Source: Desulfovibrio sp. JC010 (GTDB taxonomy: Bacteria > Desulfobacterota > Desulfovibrionia > Desulfovibrionales > Desulfovibrionaceae). Taken from it: a DNA stretch of 64,000 nt. Shown piece after piece: positions 25,043 to 33,943 of the stretch. A program made the position numbers and the translations under genes. Position 1 is the stretch's first letter, and every line of letters starts with the position of its first letter. Location of the stretch: the NCBI RefSeq assembly GCF_010470675.1, contig NZ_VOIQ01000001.1, positions 372,001 through 436,000 of the forward strand. The letters are read 5' to 3'. Below the pieces are notes generated by a model. It was not told where the DNA came from, ran no database searches, and saw nothing but the letters and a program-made list of their open reading frames with translations.

Positions 25043-25175
25043 ATTAAAAATCACAGATATGAGATATTATGAGTAGTGCAATCTTTTTATCCCCAAACAA
25101 GGAGGAAATTAAAGCAACAAAACTCTATAGAATAATGTTAACGAGGCCAAAGTAAACTTGTAGAGAGAGGTGCCT

Positions 25176-25706
25176 ATGAACTTTAACTCGGTTCTACGGT
25201 TCTGTGCCCTGGCAAGTGTAACAGTCGCTGTGGTAATGGGGGTGTATTTGGTCCAAGAGTCCAAAGCCACTTCTTACATGTCCAATGATTCCACAGCCTG
25301 TATCAACTGCCATGTCATGGAGAGTTATTACGCAACATGGCAGCACAGTTCCCACGCTCAACGCGCCCAATGTGTTGACTGTCATTTGCCGGTGGAGAAT
25401 TACATCGACAAATATGCGTCAAAGTCCCGCGACGGATGGAACCACTCTGTCGCATTCACCTTGAACACCTACGGGAAACGCATGCTCATTACAGATGATG
25501 GAGCCCGGCGTGTTCAGGAAAACTGCATCAGATGTCATTCCAGCTTTTCAAAAACACTCATCAAAAATGTCGACCGCTACCATGCGTTTGACAGCGAGTC
25601 GTTAGGGGAAAGAAAATGCTGGCATTGCCACCGCTATGTCCCGCACGGGAAAGTACGCAGCATTAATGCCGCACCCGTAAGACTTGGCGTAAAGTATACT
25701 CAATAA
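25176..25706 (+). CDS. nrfH: NrfH tetraheme membrane cytochrome (quinol dehydrogenase of NrfHA)
   Basis: NapC/NirT-family cytochrome that takes electrons from menaquinol and passes them to NrfA. One N-terminal membrane anchor (about residues 7-26) leads to a periplasmic domain with four heme motifs: CINCHVM, CVDCH, CIRCH and CWHCH. The Met after the first motif matches the unusual His/Met heme of NrfH. Length is 176 residues. A GTG at 25170 is also in frame, but AGAGAGG sits correctly before the ATG at 25176. It is followed by nrfA after 26 bases and preceded by a palindromic operator-like site. Confidence 0.94.
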   Translation: MNFNSVLRFCALASVTVAVVMGVYLVQESKATSYMSNDSTACINCHVMESYYATWQHSSHAQRAQCVDCHLPVENYIDKYASKSRDGWNHSVAFTLNTYGKRMLITDDGARRVQENCIRCHSSFSKTLIKNVDRYHAFDSESLGERKCWHCHRYVPHGKVRSINAAPVRLGVKYTQ

Positions 25707-25732
25707 TTTTTTTTGAGATGAATGGGGGAACA

Positions 25733-27244
25733 ATGAAGAAAAATACTATCATATTGGTGGGGGCTCTTATCGCAATAGCCTTCATGGCCTACATGCTGCT
25801 TTCAATCCAAACTAAGAAAACTGAACAGGTTCTGCTAAACACCGCTCCGGTGATTAAAGAAAAGGGAGTAGAAGCCAGAAGCGACATCTGGGGTAAGGAA
25901 TATCCCCGCCAGTATGACACCTGGAAAAAAACCAGAGACAGTAACAAGATTGAAGATCTGGTGGAAAAATATCCCCAGCTGGCAATTCTTTGGTCCGGTT
26001 ACGGTTTCGCCAAAGACTATAATGCTCCCCGCGGACACTTCAACGCTCTGCAGAGCAACATCAACACCCTGCGCACCGGCGCACCCACAGGTCCCAATGA
26101 CGGCCCCATGCCCATGGCCTGCTGGTCCTGTAAATCATCTGATGTTCCGCGCCTCATGGAAAGAGACGGTGAGCTTGAATACTTCACCGGAAAATGGGCA
26201 AGAATGGGTAGCGAAATTGTGAACCCCATCGGCTGTGCAGACTGCCACAACAGTCAGACTAGCCAGCTTGAGATCTCAAGACCTTACCTCAAGCGCGGCC
26301 TCGAAGCGAGCGGCAAAAAACTGGAAGACCTTACTTTTCAGGATATGCGCTCACTTGCCTGTGCCCAGTGCCACTCTGAATACTACTTCAAAAAGACCCC
26401 TTACACCGATAAGGCAGGCAACAAGCAGATTGCCGCTGTAGTAACCTTCCCGTGGGCCAAGGGCCTCGCTGCCGAAAACATGGAAGAATACTACAACGAA
26501 TACGGATTCAAAGACTGGACTCATAAGCTGAGTAAGACTCCCATGCTTAAAGCCCAGCACCCCGGTTATGAAATCTTCACCACCGGCATTCACTACAAGC
26601 GCGGCCTTTCCTGCGCGGACTGCCACATGCCTTACACTCAGGAAGGCAGCGTAAAGTTCTCTGACCACCAGATTCAGAGCCCTCTCAACAACATCGCAAA
26701 CTCCTGCCTGACCTGTCACCGCCAGAGCGAGGAAGAGTTCAAGCAGATCGTAGAAGAAAAACTGAAGCGTAAGAACCAGCTGAACGTCATCGCCATGAAC
26801 AGCCTTGCCAATGCGCACCTTTTAGCCAAAAAGGCATGGGAAGTAGGCGCAACCGAAGACGAAATGAGAAAGCCCATTAATACCATTCGTTCCGCACAGT
26901 GGCTCTGGGATTACTCCATCGCCAGCCATGGTTCCTTCTTCCACGCTCCCGGCGAGACCCTGCGTCTCCTTGGTGTAGCAAACAACAAGGCCATGCAGGC
27001 CCGTCTGGAACTTCAGAACATTCTCGCCAACCACGGTGTAACCAACTACGAAGTGCCTGATTTCTCCACCAAGGAAAAGGCTCAGAAGCTGGCCGGCGTA
27101 CCTTTCGACAAGCTCGTTAAGGATAAGATGAGATTCAAGAAAGGATTGGTTGTCGAATGGTATGATGACGCTGTGAAAGCAGGACGTCTGGATAAAAACT
27201 GGTGGAAGATTCTGCCCGACAACACTGCTTACCCGCAGAATTAA
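25733..27244 (+). CDS. nrfA: Cytochrome c nitrite reductase, pentaheme catalytic subunit
   Basis: Periplasmic ammonia-forming nitrite reductase. The catalytic heme site CWSCK (CXXCK, about residue 128) carries the Lys that ligates the active iron; four normal sites follow: CADCH, CAQCH, CADCH(MPY) and CLTCH. An N-terminal hydrophobic segment (IILVGALIAIAFMAYMLL) acts as uncleaved anchor or signal. The 503 residues fit the family. I start at the ATG at 25733, preceded by GGGGGAAC, rather than at 25718. In sulfate reducers NrfHA detoxifies nitrite, which inhibits dissimilatory sulfite reductase, and may allow growth on nitrite. A terminator closes the operon. Confidence 0.96.
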   Translation: MKKNTIILVGALIAIAFMAYMLLSIQTKKTEQVLLNTAPVIKEKGVEARSDIWGKEYPRQYDTWKKTRDSNKIEDLVEKYPQLAILWSGYGFAKDYNAPRGHFNALQSNINTLRTGAPTGPNDGPMPMACWSCKSSDVPRLMERDGELEYFTGKWARMGSEIVNPIGCADCHNSQTSQLEISRPYLKRGLEASGKKLEDLTFQDMRSLACAQCHSEYYFKKTPYTDKAGNKQIAAVVTFPWAKGLAAENMEEYYNEYGFKDWTHKLSKTPMLKAQHPGYEIFTTGIHYKRGLSCADCHMPYTQEGSVKFSDHQIQSPLNNIANSCLTCHRQSEEEFKQIVEEKLKRKNQLNVIAMNSLANAHLLAKKAWEVGATEDEMRKPINTIRSAQWLWDYSIASHGSFFHAPGETLRLLGVANNKAMQARLELQNILANHGVTNYEVPDFSTKEKAQKLAGVPFDKLVKDKMRFKKGLVVEWYDDAVKAGRLDKNWWKILPDNTAYPQN

Positions 27245-28081: not shown

Positions 28082-29407
28082 TTACCCTTCCCGAAAAGAT
28101 TCATCAAACCCGCGAATAATCGGATCAAGGAAATAGGTGATCAGCCTGCGCTGGCCGACCTGCATTTCCGCAGCCAGTTGCATACCCGGAATAAGATTGA
28201 AGTTTTCCGGAACATTACGCAATTCGCTTTGCCCGATTTTAACCTTGGCCCGATAGACTACCTTCTCTCCGCCTTCACCGGACTGCTCCAGAAAAGCATC
28301 CGGACTGATCACCGCCACGCTGCCAAGCAGGATTCCGTAACGCTGAAACGGGAGTGCTTCCAGCTTAATGCGTACCGGAACACCTTTATAAACCCTGCCG
28401 ATATCGCGAGCATTGATTTCCACATCCGCCTCAAGGGTTGAACCCAGCGGAGCCAGAACCATTAGCGGCTCGGCTTCACGGGCGATGGAGCCTGCGGCAA
28501 GCTGGGCAGTCTCCTTAACCACGGCCCGGCGCGGGGCACGGATTTCCACCAACTCACGTATACGCTCGGCCTTGACCAGCCGGTGCCTGAGTTCATTAAG
28601 CTCCTGACGGGCCTCAACCAATGCCTTGGTCAATTCCGCGCGGTAATCCTTTTCCTGTGAAACGCGCTGAGCGCGGGCTTTTTCCAATTGCTCCACCAAT
28701 TGCGCGGCAGAGGCCCCGGCAGCGGCAACCTGCCGCGAAAGCTCGCGGCGGTCCTCGCGGGCCTTAAGATATTCCAGCTTGGAGCACATTTTCTTTTCAA
28801 AAAGTCCCTTATAGGTCTCCTCAATCTCGCGCAGACTTTTACGGCTCAGGCGCAGACGGTCCTGTTCCGCTTCAGCAGCTTCCACCTTGCGCTCAAGTGT
28901 ATCGATTTCATTGTCCAGCGACTCCAGCCGGAATTTCTGCTGTTCCATACGGATAGCCATGAGCCGGACCTGCCCCTGTACCAGCGGACTGGCTGCGGCC
29001 TCGATGCTGCGGCCTTCAAGCTCGGCCTCCACCCTCTCCGAAAGTGCCAGCAGGTATTCCTCGCGGCTGACTATCTCCGCTTCATCCGCGCTGGAAAAGG
29101 TCGGGTCAAGAGTCGCCAGCACCTGCCCTGCTTCCACCACGTCACCTTCCTTCACATTCATGGTCCGGATAATCGCGGTCTGGATGGGCTGGATGACCAC
29201 CGGACGATCGGAAGTAACAACTTTACCCTTGGCGATGACAACTTTATCCACCCGTCCGATACAGGCCCATGTGATGCCGAAAGCGATCAGGCCAAGGATG
29301 GTAAACAGGGAAAAGCGTGCTGCCAGCGGAACCCTGCGTTCACGGATTTTTACGGAATCAGGCAGGAATTCCAGTTCGTTATTTTTTAAGCTGTGTCTAC
29401 GTCTCAT
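28082..29407 (-). CDS. Type I secretion periplasmic adaptor (HlyD family)
   Basis: Membrane-fusion protein that links the ABC exporter to an outer-membrane channel. It has a short basic cytoplasmic N-terminus, one membrane segment at about residues 35-55 (FSLFTILGLIAFGITWAC), a biotinyl-lipoyl-like half motif (VKEGDVVEAGQVLATLDPTF), a long coiled coil rich in Glu/Arg/Leu (about 110-280), and the C-terminal beta-barrel (EINARDIGRVYKG-type segment, VPVRIKLEALPF). The ATG at 29407 overlaps the ABC gene stop (ATGA) and has GGAGG 4 bases upstream; the longer ORF from 29440 is rejected. 441 residues. No TolC-like gene is in the window. Confidence 0.92.
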   Translation of the reverse strand: MRRRHSLKNNELEFLPDSVKIRERRVPLAARFSLFTILGLIAFGITWACIGRVDKVVIAKGKVVTSDRPVVIQPIQTAIIRTMNVKEGDVVEAGQVLATLDPTFSSADEAEIVSREEYLLALSERVEAELEGRSIEAAASPLVQGQVRLMAIRMEQQKFRLESLDNEIDTLERKVEAAEAEQDRLRLSRKSLREIEETYKGLFEKKMCSKLEYLKAREDRRELSRQVAAAGASAAQLVEQLEKARAQRVSQEKDYRAELTKALVEARQELNELRHRLVKAERIRELVEIRAPRRAVVKETAQLAAGSIAREAEPLMVLAPLGSTLEADVEINARDIGRVYKGVPVRIKLEALPFQRYGILLGSVAVISPDAFLEQSGEGGEKVVYRAKVKIGQSELRNVPENFNLIPGMQLAAEMQVGQRRLITYFLDPIIRGFDESFREG

Positions 29408-31551
29408 GCTGCCTCCATCCCTCTGGTCTGCTTTTCCCACAAGTTCCTGTAGATGGGCGAGGCCATAAGCAGTTCATTGTGCGATCCCTGCGCTTCAATA
29501 CGCCCGTCTTCCATGACTATTATCCGGTCCGCGTGACGCAGTGTGGAAAGCCTGTGGGCCACGATGATCATGGAGCGGCCCTCGGCGATCTTTTCGAGGT
29601 TTTCCTGAATGCGGTATTCGCTTTCAGGGTCAAGAGCCGAGGTCGCCTCGTCAAAGATGATCAGTCCGGGATCTTTCATAAGTGCACGGGCTATTGCCAG
29701 ACGCTGTTTCTGCCCACCGGAAAGGTTGGCCCCGTTTTCATCCAGCACGGTGTCATAACCCTGCGGCAGCTTGCGGATGAATTCGTCCGCCCCGGCCAGC
29801 TTGGCAGCTTCTACGATCTGTTCAAAATCCGCCCCCGGTCTGGCCAGTCCGATATTCTCGCGCACCTTGCCGTGGAAAATAAAATTCTCCTGCAGCACCA
29901 CGCCGATGGAATCGCGCAGATGGCGGATATCCATTTCCCGGATTTCTGTACCGTCAAAGGATATGTTGCCCTTCTGGACCGGATACAGACCTTGAATGAG
30001 CCGGGTCAGGGTAGTTTTGCCTGATCCGCTGCGCCCGACCACACCCAGCACTTCACCGGGCTTTATGTTCAGGTCGATGCTGTCCAGTGCCGGATTCTCA
30101 CCCGGAACATAGGAAAAACTCAACTGGTTGATTTCCAGCCCGCCCTTGATTTCCGAGCGAATGCCCCTCCTGTCAAAACCCGGTTCCGGCCTGCGGTTCA
30201 TGATCTCGCCAAGCATGTTCACTGCGAGGTGGGTTTTCTGGTATTCGTGAACCAGCTCCACCAGTCTGATCAGCGGCGTGGTCACATTCTGGGAAAGCAT
30301 CTGAAATGCAATCAGCGAACCTACGGTCATGGTGCCGTCAAACACTGAACTCACCCCCACCCAGATGACCGAAACAGTCATCAGCCGTTCAAGGGTCTTG
30401 ATGATGGCCTGCCCGGCAGCGGCCATTTTCTCCACTGAAAAATTGCTGGAGACCGACTGCGCCGAACCGTCTTCCCAACGCTTGTTGCGCGAAGGTTCCA
30501 GAGCCAGCGACTTAACCGTATTCATACCGGTGATGGTTTCTACCAGCAGGGCCTGCCTTCTACCTTCGGCATCATAAAGCCGCAGCAGTCTTCCGTAGAA
30601 GGGACCAAGCATCAGTCCGATGCAGATAGCTGTGACCAGCGCGAAACCGAGCACGATAAAGGTCAGCTGTGGGCTGTACAGATAAAGGATTGGCAGGAAA
30701 ACCAGCAGGGCCGTGGCATCGAGCATGGTTTCCAGCATATTCCCGGTCAGGAACTCCCGTATCTGCTCCACCTGCTGCATGTGTTTGACCACCACCCCGG
30801 CAAAACTGCGCTCGAAAAAATCCAGCGGCAGCCGCACCAGCCGCGCAAAAGTATTCATGGCCAGCCGCAAATCAATGCGCGAGGTGGCAAACCGGAGCAG
30901 ATATTCCCGCAGAAACCGCAGCACGCCTTCAAAAAGCACCGCGCCTACCACGCCGATACCCATGACGTGCAAAGTGGTAACAGCATGGTGGGCCAGCACT
31001 TTATCCACTACATTCTGAAAGTAGAGCGGAATGGCAAAGGCGAGCAGGTTAAGCACCAGCGCAATAATGACCACCTCGGTAAAAATACGCTTCTCAAACA
31101 GAACCTGCGCCCCGAACCAGAGCAACCCGAACCGTTTCTCGCCCTCCTGCTTCACGGTCTTGAAGAGTATGACCTCCCCGGTCCAGATTTCTTCAATCTC
31201 GGCACGGGAAACAAACTGCAATCCTTCCCCGGTGAAAAGCACAAGGCGGTCATCATCCTTGGTTTCGCCCTGCTCAAAGCCGGAAAAAACCAATGTATCG
31301 CCGTTAGTCAAAACGCCCAGCACCGGGAAGGTTTCTTCAAGGCTATGCAGCCTCTTCCAGCCCACCCTGCGGATTCCCGCTTCCAGCCCGTTCTCACGGG
31401 CCATGCGCAGAAAACGGGAGGTTGTCACAGTTTCTCCGCCGAGATCATACTCCTGCCGCAGATCTTCTGCAGATACATTCAGGCTGTAATGCGAAAACAC
31501 TGCCGCAAGATTGGACAGTGCTGAAATATTTAATTCTCTGGTGCGTGCCAT
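29404..31551 (-). CDS. Type I secretion ABC exporter with inactive C39-like domain
   Basis: A 715-residue HlyB/LktB-type transporter. Residues 1-130 resemble the C39 peptidase fold, but the catalytic Cys is absent at the expected place (the motif reads ALSNLAAVFSHYSL), so it is a docking, non-cleaving domain. The membrane region (about 155-420) is followed by a nucleotide-binding domain: Walker A GRSGSGKTTL, signature LSGGQKQRLAIARAL, Walker B LIIFDEATSALD, H-loop IIVAHRLST. Such exporters recognise an uncleaved C-terminal signal. The start at 31551 has GGAGGGG at 5 bases. It is preceded by a hairpin that separates it from the small repeat protein gene, probably the substrate. Confidence 0.94.
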   Translation of the reverse strand: MARTRELNISALSNLAAVFSHYSLNVSAEDLRQEYDLGGETVTTSRFLRMARENGLEAGIRRVGWKRLHSLEETFPVLGVLTNGDTLVFSGFEQGETKDDDRLVLFTGEGLQFVSRAEIEEIWTGEVILFKTVKQEGEKRFGLLWFGAQVLFEKRIFTEVVIIALVLNLLAFAIPLYFQNVVDKVLAHHAVTTLHVMGIGVVGAVLFEGVLRFLREYLLRFATSRIDLRLAMNTFARLVRLPLDFFERSFAGVVVKHMQQVEQIREFLTGNMLETMLDATALLVFLPILYLYSPQLTFIVLGFALVTAICIGLMLGPFYGRLLRLYDAEGRRQALLVETITGMNTVKSLALEPSRNKRWEDGSAQSVSSNFSVEKMAAAGQAIIKTLERLMTVSVIWVGVSSVFDGTMTVGSLIAFQMLSQNVTTPLIRLVELVHEYQKTHLAVNMLGEIMNRRPEPGFDRRGIRSEIKGGLEINQLSFSYVPGENPALDSIDLNIKPGEVLGVVGRSGSGKTTLTRLIQGLYPVQKGNISFDGTEIREMDIRHLRDSIGVVLQENFIFHGKVRENIGLARPGADFEQIVEAAKLAGADEFIRKLPQGYDTVLDENGANLSGGQKQRLAIARALMKDPGLIIFDEATSALDPESEYRIQENLEKIAEGRSMIIVAHRLSTLRHADRIIVMEDGRIEAQGSHNELLMASPIYRNLWEKQTRGMEAA

Positions 31552-31570
31552 AAGCCCCTCCCCTCTGGGG

Positions 31571-31596
31571 CCCGGAGAGCCCTTGGGCTCTCCGGG
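31571..31596 (-). promoter_or_regulatory. Long hairpin between the 11-mer protein gene and the ABC exporter gene
   Basis: CCCGGAGAGCCC (31571-31582) pairs perfectly with GGGCTCTCCGGG (31585-31596). No T run follows on the minus strand, so it is more likely a transcript-stabilising or partially terminating structure. It would let the first gene be made in excess over the exporter genes. Confidence 0.6.
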
Positions 31597-31608
31597 TCAC
31601 AATTTGTA

Positions 31609-32145
31609 CTAACTTGCCAAGAGTTGAGTTTTCTTTTCTTCAGTTCCGCTTACATTTGCCCCGGTGCTGGATGCACTGAGTGCAGTGTAATCCTTGTAAG
31701 CCAGTGACTGTCCGTTTGCGGGTGCACTGCTCAGGGAACCGCTTTTGGCTTCAGCTACAGCCTTGGCTCCGGTCAGAAAATTTTTAGCTGTGTCATAGTA
31801 CTTCTTGCCTTCATTGTAGGTTGTGCCGACCCACTTGCTGGCGGTGGCGTACTTTTTCTTGGCCCAGTTGGATGCGGTGAGGGCGGTATTGCCCACCCAC
31901 TTGGCGGCGGTGCTGACCTTTCCGGCCAGCCAGTTGGCCGCTCCTCCTATGGACTCCGCTGTCAGTTTCACAGTTCCGTTTTTAATCCCCTTGAACCAGC
32001 TAGACGCAGTAGACACAGTACTCTTCACAAAGGAAGCAGCTTCATTGTACTTTTTGGTCACAAATGCAGCGGCAGTCTTGTAGCTCTTGGTTACGAAACT
32101 TTTTACCTGTGCAGCCTTCTTCTTGATCCATGAAAAGAAACCCAT
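31609..32145 (-). CDS. 11-residue-repeat amphipathic protein, probable type I secretion substrate
   Basis: 178 residues and no family I recognise. Residues 14-123 form ten consecutive 11-residue units with no gap, consensus A-[AS]-x-[WF]-[VLA]-x3-[YVA]-x-[TE]; for example AAAFVTKKYNE (25-35), AASFVKSTVST (36-46), AANWLAGKVST (69-79), AAKWVGNTALT (80-90), ASNWAKKKYAT (91-101), ASKWVGTTYNE (102-112). Lys, Thr and aromatic residues alternate, as in lipid-binding 11/3 helices (synuclein, LEA, apolipoproteins, perilipins). The N-terminus MGFFSWIKKK is also amphipathic. The last ~45 residues (from about 135) are Ser/Ala/Thr-rich, weakly charged, ending TQLLAS, which suits an uncleaved type I signal. 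First gene of a sigma-54 operon with the exporter genes; AGGAG is 7 bases upstream of the ATG. Confidence 0.8.
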   Translation of the reverse strand: MGFFSWIKKKAAQVKSFVTKSYKTAAAFVTKKYNEAASFVKSTVSTASSWFKGIKNGTVKLTAESIGGAANWLAGKVSTAAKWVGNTALTASNWAKKKYATASKWVGTTYNEGKKYYDTAKNFLTGAKAVAEAKSGSLSSAPANGQSLAYKDYTALSASSTGANVSGTEEKKTQLLAS

Positions 32146-32217
32146 AATGTTCTCCTGTTGATTACGGTTGTGCTTGCCTGATTTACTTCCGACTTCCCCT
32201 GCCTTTAGCTTTCTTAA

Positions 32218-32233
32218 GGCATCAACCGTGCCA
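32218..32233 (-). promoter_or_regulatory. Sigma-54 promoter of the type I secretion operon
   Basis: On the minus strand TGGCACGGTTGATGCC: the -24 element TGGCACG is complete, and GC stands exactly 10 bases after GG, as the sigma-54 rule requires (consensus TGGCACG-N4-TTGCW; here ATGCC at -12). The predicted start is near 32207, about 60 bases before the ATG. The divergent gene encodes a sigma-54 activator. Between promoter and activator gene lie direct repeats ACACTATTT (32246-32254, 32265-32273), each joined to AACCAC, and an inverted repeat ATTAC-N9-GTAAT (32328-32346); these are candidate activator sites. Confidence 0.7.
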
Positions 32234-32395
32234 CATTAGCTAACCACACTATTTTATTGGAAATACACTATTTAACCACCAAATTTTCTGCCTGATATTT
32301 CAGAAACCCATTTGATTTAATCAGCCTATTACGATATTTCGGTAATGCTTGTGAAAAAGTACCCGGACACGCAACCGAACAAACAGGACAGGTAA

Positions 32396-33943
32396 ATGCC
32401 CTACGTTAGCTTTCTTAAAGAACTGGCCGAAGAACTCTCCATCAAAGAATTGCAGAAACGTTTCCTGCAGCTGATTCTTAATCTGCAGAATGTGGAACGC
32501 GGTTCCATATGGATAAAAAAAGGAGACCGCATCCAGTGCATTGAAGCTGAAGGAGTGGAAAGCCGGAATGTGGTAGGCATGACCTTAAGCACCAAGCAGA
32601 CAAGCATTGTGGGCTGGGTTCTTGAAAATAAAGAAATGACCATTGCCGAAGGCGGGGTGGACCAGCGTCATTACACGGGCGTGGAAGACAATTTCAAACT
32701 CAAGAGCAAGCTGATCCTCTGTTTTCCCCTGTTCCTGACTAATGGAGAGATATACGGAGCCTTGCAGATTATTGACACCAGCGCGGGCGGTAAAAGACTT
32801 AATCTGCAACCGGAAAACATGAAAATCCTGCAGGATATGATCGATATCGGTTCCATTGCCCTGTCCAACGCGCTGATCCAGCATAAACGGCTAAAGCAGG
32901 TGGAACAGCTTACCGAAACTATCGATTCCATGTACTCCGGCCGCTTCATCATCGGGGTCAGCCAATCATTTAATGAAGTGATGGAGCTGGTGGACAGCTA
33001 CGCGGTCACCGACTACCCCATCCTCATTTATGGTGAATCCGGCACGGGTAAAGAACTTATTGCCAAGGAAATCCACCGTCGCAGCCACCGTAGGGACATG
33101 CCGCTCATGGTCCAGAACTGCAGTGCCATTCCGGGCCAGCTGCTGGAATCGGAGCTTTTCGGGTACGTGAAGGGAGCATTCACCGGAGCCTCACAGAACA
33201 GGGCCGGGTTATTCGAGGCTGCCAACGGCGGGACCGTTTTTCTGGATGAACTGGGGGAAATGGAATACGGCCTGCAGGCCAAAATGCTGCGTGCGCTGGA
33301 AGAAAATGAGATCAAGCCGCTGGGTTCACCGCAGTCCCGCAAAATCAATATGCGCATCATCTCGGCCACTAACAAGAACCTTGAAAAAGCCATTGCGGAC
33401 GGTGAATTCCGTCAGGACCTCTTTTACCGATTAAACGTGCTGCCCCTGCATTTGCCGCCTCTGCGCGACCGCAAGGAGGACATCCCCTTCCTGACTGAGC
33501 ACTTCATCAATCGCGAAGCCAAATTCATGAACTGTGCGCGTAAAAAAATCAGCCCCGATGCCATGAAGCTGATCCGCTCCTACCGCTGGCCGGGCAATAT
33601 ACGTGAACTGGAAAACTTCATCCGTCAGCTCATGGTACTCTGCCATGACGAGATGGTGGAAGCCAAACACCTGCCCGGATATATCCGTGACAACCAGTGG
33701 TGGTGCGAAGCTCCTTTTGACCGGGCACAGGAAAACTACACTCCCTTCCTTGAAGACGGCTGCACTGACTCCAACATCGACATGGAAGGACTTACATGGA
33801 ATGAGATTGAAGGGGCTTACGCTAAATTCCTGCTGGAAAAATGCGAAGGCAATATCTCCCGTGCGGCCAAGGTCGCCAACCTGAACAGATCAACCTTTGA
33901 TTCACGCCTTTCCAAGCTGGGAGTGAAAAAAGTACCGAATTAA
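32396..33943 (+). CDS. Sigma-54-dependent activator, GAF-AAA+-Fis
   Basis: 515-residue enhancer-binding protein. An N-terminal GAF-type sensory domain (about 1-165; FLQLILNLQNVERGSIWIKK through GEIYGALQIID) is followed by the AAA+ core (about 185-420) with Walker A YGESGTGKELIA, the sigma-54-contacting loop GAFTGA, Walker B TVFLDELGEM and the FRQDLFYRLNVLPL segment. The C-terminus has a Fis-type helix-turn-helix (GNISRAAKVANLNRSTFDSRLSKLG). There is no receiver domain, so a small molecule or protein, not phosphorylation, should set its activity. It is divergent from the secretion operon whose sigma-54 promoter lies about 160 bases away, so it is the likely activator. Confidence 0.93.
   Translation: MPYVSFLKELAEELSIKELQKRFLQLILNLQNVERGSIWIKKGDRIQCIEAEGVESRNVVGMTLSTKQTSIVGWVLENKEMTIAEGGVDQRHYTGVEDNFKLKSKLILCFPLFLTNGEIYGALQIIDTSAGGKRLNLQPENMKILQDMIDIGSIALSNALIQHKRLKQVEQLTETIDSMYSGRFIIGVSQSFNEVMELVDSYAVTDYPILIYGESGTGKELIAKEIHRRSHRRDMPLMVQNCSAIPGQLLESELFGYVKGAFTGASQNRAGLFEAANGGTVFLDELGEMEYGLQAKMLRALEENEIKPLGSPQSRKINMRIISATNKNLEKAIADGEFRQDLFYRLNVLPLHLPPLRDRKEDIPFLTEHFINREAKFMNCARKKISPDAMKLIRSYRWPGNIRELENFIRQLMVLCHDEMVEAKHLPGYIRDNQWWCEAPFDRAQENYTPFLEDGCTDSNIDMEGLTWNEIEGAYAKFLLEKCEGNISRAAKVANLNRSTFDSRLSKLGVKKVPN

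Follow-up and report, generated by a model that had tools for sequence, protein, structure and literature searches.

The locus of Desulfovibrio sp. JC010 studied here raises the question of what a small repetitive protein, encoded next to the genes of an exporter, does for its cell. An earlier note, made from the sequence of the 64,000-nucleotide stretch of DNA that we analysed (the window), described uninterrupted 11-residue units in this protein and proposed that it is type I secretion cargo with a surface-active or lipid-binding role. The sequence establishes five features of the locus: the repeat geometry, the pairing of the gene with an exporter, a C39-like exporter domain without cysteine, a conserved C-terminus and a sigma54-type site. 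From these we infer that the protein, hereafter the cargo, is exported and surface-active, and what biological role it may have.

The cargo gene and its repeat geometry

The cargo gene is an open reading frame on the minus strand (31609-32145) that starts with ATG at 32145, ends in a stop codon and encodes 178 aa. That the gene is real follows from its orthologue in another species of the genus, with 89 % amino-acid identity and a dN of 0.077 against a dS of 0.85. Residues 14-123 (31777-32106, minus strand) split exactly into ten ungapped units of 11 residues, as had been claimed, and the proposed unit consensus is likewise visible: alanine stands at position 1 in seven of the ten units and W or F at position 4 in eight, with V at position 5 in five, Y or V at position 9 in six and T or E at position 11 in seven. 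Units 1, 5 and 10 fit it most poorly. The protein ends in TQLLAS as described, and the GGxGxD motif, said to be missing, is indeed found neither in the cargo nor in any of the 15 members of its family.

The periodicity had been left to a statistical repeat test, and it passes. BLOSUM62 self-similarity of the cargo at lag 11 has a z of 7.4, a signal reached by none of 5000 shuffles when the maximum over lags 2-40 is taken; z is 6.3 or 7.2 at lag 22, in two calculations, and 3.5 at lag 33. When the whole 178 aa are used, with no region chosen, the best lag is 22, twice 11, again reached in 0/5000 shuffles. Lag 11 is the best lag in 15/15 family members, and its signal is reached by one of 1000 shuffles in the L008 member and by none in the others. 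The repeat observation is correct and not a product of chance.

The 11/3 amphipathic geometry that the earlier note had attributed to the repeats is also borne out. Over cargo residues 14-130 the hydrophobic moment is greatest at 98.5 degrees per residue, compared with 98.2 degrees for an 11/3 helix. The peak value is 0.301, which 0/300 shuffles reach (maxima 0.175 +/- 0.022); at 160 degrees the moment is 0.029. On such a helix the hydrophobic positions of the unit fall at 295 degrees (position 4, W/F), 0 (position 1, A), 33 (position 5, V) and 65 (position 9, Y/V). The peak lies at 98.5-99.5 degrees in 14 of the 15 family members, one copy at locus L039 having a moment value reached by 1/300 shuffles. 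The exception is the L008 member, with a peak at 101.5 degrees and a value reached by 4/300 shuffles.

Geometry of this kind recalls several families of lipid-associated or protective proteins, without making the cargo a member of any. No Pfam or NCBIfam family describes the cargo, and no apolipoprotein, synuclein, LEA, perilipin or phasin profile matches it at E <= 1. Among the matches listed (25 of 33 Pfam families) for the 15 members, ApoO is hit by five (best E 1.2e-4), Apolipoprotein A1/A4/E by three (best E 0.0014) and two phasin models by one member each (E 0.22 and 0.59). Such apolipoprotein-like and phasin matches probably stem from amphipathic composition. The cargo has the 11-residue period and the 11/3 geometry of these groups, a likeness in action and not in membership. 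A close parallel is Perilipin 4, described in excerpts of two papers as an intracellular protein whose long, repetitive, 11-residue-based amphipathic helix coats neutral lipid (PMC5889406, PMC8064757). The cargo too is predicted to form a long 11-residue-based amphipathic helix, but where the excerpts give the Perilipin 4 helix no bulky hydrophobic residues, the cargo carries W or F in most of its units.

Antifreeze helices with 11-residue spacing also exist; the bulky W/F/V face of the cargo led us to set this identity aside. Open-licence literature, as far as its searchable text extends, yielded no description of the cargo family.

A family paired with one exporter clade

The family is narrow. 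Used alone as the query, the cargo sequence picked up 7 of 148 relatives at E <= 0.01. A six-member profile (A1) searched at the same threshold in 348 genomes of the class matched 19, of which 13 are strong (E <= 1.6e-36) and belong to four genera of one family; the scores of the strong members are partly so by construction, since the profile includes six of the 13. Six genomes with weak matches (E 3.8e-6 to 0.009; G084, G011, G318, G215, G054 and G008) were left out of the count. The G084 match was rejected as a small lipoprotein-like ORF with no exporter match, and that in G011 as a different ORF of 77 aa. Across the phylum, a sample of 395 genomes from 246 genera gave four matches at E <= 0.001, all in the same family as the strong ones. 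Scanning genome contigs with the cargo alignment returned five loci; with the single cargo protein it returned 36 pattern matches, none of them confirmed, and the same held for 113 pattern matches in viral contigs. Named records with a cargo are Solidesulfovibrio magneticus, S. alcoholivorans, Solidesulfovibrio sp. and a Desulfovibrionaceae MAG. Family members are 173-236 aa long and helical by prediction. Two genomes have tandem cargo paralogues, and both copies keep the C-terminus.

Plasmid searches touched the family only by convergence. Matches of the cargo to Zymomonas (seven plasmid and two phage records, all Zymomonas) were rejected as convergent, and a plasmid search with a second family member found no match. 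The one of these records that was read, the Zymomonas mobilis plasmid NZ_CP036460.1 (L003:7986-8867), encodes in a phage-like region a protein in which the 11-residue unit VKEKVRQALNW is repeated in tandem almost perfectly, ahead of a hydrophobic stretch; the 16 kb covered there include no annotated exporter.

On the minus strand of the window the cargo gene is followed by an ABC exporter gene (29404-31551, 715 aa) and a gene for an HlyD-type periplasmic adaptor (28082-29440, GTG start as listed). The adaptor scores 319 bits against TIGR01843 (cut-off 208.65). The ABC protein scores 662 bits against TIGR01846, under the cut-off of 725.55, and HlyB is its closest solved structure in the PDB. 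Its N-terminus matches Peptidase_C39 (PF03412) at 25.7 bits (cut-off 22). The earlier note had taken this domain to be inactive, and an alignment of 13 exporters agrees: its first 20 columns, in which the catalytic cysteine is expected, contain no cysteine at all, and five exporters have one or two beyond them. An outer-membrane channel partner could not be singled out among 15 OEP domain matches elsewhere in the genome.

The earlier note held that homologues found mostly without exporter genes would speak against a type I cargo; the opposite was found. Thirteen loci were examined beside the window, 12 with strong homologues and a thirteenth (L042) that was weak and set aside. Regulator, ABC and HlyD genes adjoin the cargo gene in 12/12 of the strong loci and in the window, hence in 13/13, across four genera. 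An exporter search of the same 348 genomes gave 41 matches at E <= 1e-160, and those at 61 % identity or more come from exactly the 13 strong-cargo genomes, all others being at 50 % or less. Gene order is not constant: the window genus has the cargo gene ahead of the exporter genes and a divergent regulator, and at the 11 other loci it is the cargo gene that diverges, from a regulator, ABC and HlyD on one strand. Four genes kept together through such rearrangement are what a cargo-exporter unit predicts. Apart from ORFs antisense to these four, no other ORF of at least 80 aa is common to all loci at E 1e-8, in a comparison in which two stretches end at contig ends and small or fast-changing ORFs would be missed. 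From this linkage, the cargo is very probably the dedicated type I cargo of the neighbouring exporter.

The second line of evidence is the C-terminus. Residues 147-178 (31612-31707, minus strand) form a putative type I export signal. The earlier note had claimed an uncleaved C-terminal signal; the conserved element stands, the last 32-35 residues being conserved in 15/15 members behind a linker of variable length, and we infer its function as a signal. When seven of the 13 cargo genomes were searched with a C-terminal profile, it gave eight strong matches, all on cargo genes, with two at chance level. According to an excerpt on RTX cargo, L and A are preferred near the C-terminal end (PMC8861453), and the cargo likewise has both there. 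GG or GA occurs in the first 40 residues of only 4/15 members and is not conserved, so that the leader of a C39-processed bacteriocin or microcin is not in evidence, and the lack of cysteine in the exporter's C39-like domain argues that the cargo is probably not processed.

These two lines also bear on whether the protein leaves the cell at all. It could instead be an intracellular LEA-, phasin- or synuclein-like protein whose gene lies next to the exporter genes by coincidence. Repeats of 11 residues are found in LEA proteins as well, and the single weak phasin-model matches point the same way, but the genome-by-genome correspondence with one exporter clade across 348 genomes, linkage at every strong locus and a conserved C-terminus behind a variable linker all stand against an intracellular role, which we consider very improbable.

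Between the cargo stop and the ABC start lies a gap of 57 nt that holds a 10-bp G+C-rich hairpin (31572-31595, minus strand; fold z -2.84, one of 200 shuffles being as stable). A scan for intrinsic terminators did not call it, and Rfam has no match in 31000-32500 of the window. The hairpin may lower exporter expression relative to the cargo. In a sister species (L010:10074-10304) a longer hairpin follows the cargo gene, unlike that of the window in sequence and length.

Two neighbouring observations belong to the exporter genes. Beyond the HlyD gene, window positions 25170-27244 hold two multihaem-cytochrome-like ORFs that, from their CxxCH motifs, presumably resemble NrfH-NrfA. A relative of the exporter (49.6 % identity) is encoded with an HlyD on the Rhizobium leguminosarum plasmid NC_012852.1 (L129), about 1.7 kb from the gene of a very long DUF4082 protein, and may therefore carry quite different cargo.

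Sigma54-type control and a shared regulator

Upstream of the cargo gene a -24/-12 site of the sigma54 type, TGGCACGGTTGATGCC (32218-32233, minus strand), agrees with the consensus at 10 of 12 positions. In 13/13 loci the first cargo gene is preceded, at a distance of 71-88 nt, by a site with 10 or 11 of 12 matches, with p per locus of 0.000-0.022 under a first-order Markov model; the second tandem copies at two loci have no such site (p 0.26 and 0.96). Only two sites in the whole 64-kb window score 10 or more, one of them the cargo promoter. Divergent from the cargo gene is the gene of a sigma54 enhancer-binding regulator of 515 aa with a GAFTGA loop (32396-33943, plus strand; PF00158 E 7e-67). 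The locus thus pairs a -24/-12 site with an adjacent enhancer-binding regulator, the two marks of a sigma54-dependent operon as predicted from sequence. Two direct repeats of GAAATATC, 31 nt apart (32294-32340, minus strand) and aligned in four genomes, are the probable activator-binding site.

The regulators fall into two lineages, 34-41 % identical, with GAFTGA in the window genus and GVATGV at the other 11 loci (L011-L014 and L035-L041); the window regulator is 34-39 % identical to the latter. As the -24/-12 sites occur in 13/13 loci, sigma54-type control persists while the regulator differs. DVUA0100, which in D. vulgaris regulates type III secretion together with sigma54, also has the unusual GVATGV loop according to an excerpt of its description (PMC4641369). 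It shares this loop with the 11 regulators outside the window genus, but those stand beside a type I exporter; the window regulator is of the other lineage. A plasmid regulator of N. vulgaris DP4 (L128:7701-9545), itself with a GVATGV loop and placed among type III secretion genes, is 47.6 % identical to the L012 regulator over 69 % of the query.

Within the genus the regulator gene also faces a second kind of gene. Orthologues of at least 73 % identity occur in four of 17 genus genomes; a copy at 51-55 % is found in each of the 17, with or without that orthologue, and in two genomes that were inspected this paralogue adjoins other genes. The cargo operon is present in two of the four, G000 and G007. 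In the other two, G012 and G006, the orthologue (73 %; the G006 match contains one TAA) faces a divergent protein of 1421 or 1417 aa with GH18 and CBM2 domains (L118:3894-9986 and L119:9031-15108). These regulator and chitinase genes adjoin the same neighbour gene as the cargo loci, presumably GpsA-like, and GH18 occurs in exactly 2/17 genus genomes, again G012 and G006. The intergenic regions align across all four genomes, with both GAAATATC repeats in common at the 31-nt spacing and a sigma54-type site 138 nt upstream of the chitinase gene. The GAAATATC pair, derived from the alignment of those same four intergenic regions, was found once in each of the four genomes searched and the reversed control never, by which the regulator looks single-target.

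A chitinase output in two species and a cargo output in two others suggests a shared cue. The chitin link comes from the regulator in two other species and not from the cargo. That the cargo serves the colonisation of solid polymers such as chitin is accordingly a tentative idea. Tentative too is the fuller scheme, in which an exported 11/3 amphipathic-helix family of type I cargo acts in a perilipin-like manner and the genus regulator, apparently with a single target, has swapped its output at one chromosomal position between cargo and GH18-CBM2 chitinase, both serving attachment to, or use of, insoluble polymers.

A proposed secreted surface-active protein and its alternatives

The face of the helix is conserved and its charge is not. 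The two proteins of the window genus carry net charges of +18 and +21, the 13 others -2 to -8; charge is thus not the conserved property, the cationic character being absent from the homologues outside the genus. An amphipathicity that is conserved where charge is not fits an interface coat or the packing of helices better than charge-guided attack on membranes. This weighs on the idea of a membrane-active, bacteriocin-like cargo without leader peptide, whose amphipathic helices would disturb the membranes of competitors. The cationic, W/F-rich sequence of the window genus would suit such a protein, as would an exporter of the wider peptide- and protein-export kind, the tandem paralogues in two genomes and, among the weak matches listed, Endotoxin_N (one of 15 members, E 0.01) and AMEP412 (four of 15, best E 0.022). 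The negative charge of the 13 homologues speaks against it. The comparison of ORFs of at least 80 aa at E 1e-8, which a small or fast-changing gene would escape, offered no immunity-gene candidate common to all loci, and we regard the idea as improbable.

The conserved A/W/V face could equally serve to join helices to one another, and the cargo might then be an exported structural or matrix protein whose hydrophobic faces join helices into bundles or fibres of a biofilm or sheath, with no coating of lipid or oil. Hendecad coiled coils have an a-d-e-h hydrophobic pattern, which the hydrophobic positions 1, 4, 5 and 9 of the cargo do not follow. AlphaFold2 models of two family members are all-helical but of low confidence (mean pLDDT 42.9 and 41.9) and show no confident packing, which counts weakly in the same direction. 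Sigma54 promoters of D. vulgaris, in the excerpt cited above, often control cell-exterior and biofilm genes (PMC4641369), in keeping with a matrix role. On balance we think this role unlikely.

We favour instead, with some confidence, a type I-exported cargo that acts as a secreted surface-active coat or conditioning protein. As pictured from promoter and gene order, the divergent activator would fire the sigma54 promoter, and cargo, ABC and HlyD would be transcribed in that order. The cargo, probably unprocessed, would be recognised through its conserved C-terminus and leave in one step through the ABC-HlyD pair and an outer-membrane channel that is presumably encoded elsewhere. Outside the cell its ten units would probably form a long 11/3 amphipathic helix, the W/F-A-V-Y/V face of which would adsorb at hydrophobic interfaces or pack helices, giving the coat or conditioning protein. 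That the cargo works through an amphipathic interface is itself somewhat likelier than the contrary.

The exporter is of a known kind, and no described cargo family matched the cargo. Like the HlyB/HlyD/TolC type I system, the locus has an ABC protein closest to HlyB, an HlyD above the TIGR01843 cut-off, a C39-like domain without cysteine and a cargo gene beside the exporter. It differs from that system in a short cargo that is helical by prediction, has no RTX repeat in 15/15 members and stands under a sigma54-type promoter. The biofilm adhesin exporter of Desulfovibrio vulgaris shares type I export and the bacterial family; as described, it carries large adhesins as opposed to a small repetitive cargo. 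The pairing of cargo and exporter suggests a so far undescribed kind of exported, probably surface-active protein.

If the cargo is exported, it would add to the range of type I cargo, otherwise made up of RTX proteins, adhesins and small processed peptides, an amphipathic-helix protein that has no RTX repeats and is not processed. The clean pairing of cargo and C-terminus with the exporter in 13 genomes means that few components would be needed to test the export signal. The regulator, whose gene in two sister species stands opposite a chitinase gene, would offer a direct handle on the timing of cargo production. Biofilm formation and corrosion are the fields in which surface-active proteins made by sulfate reducers would matter.
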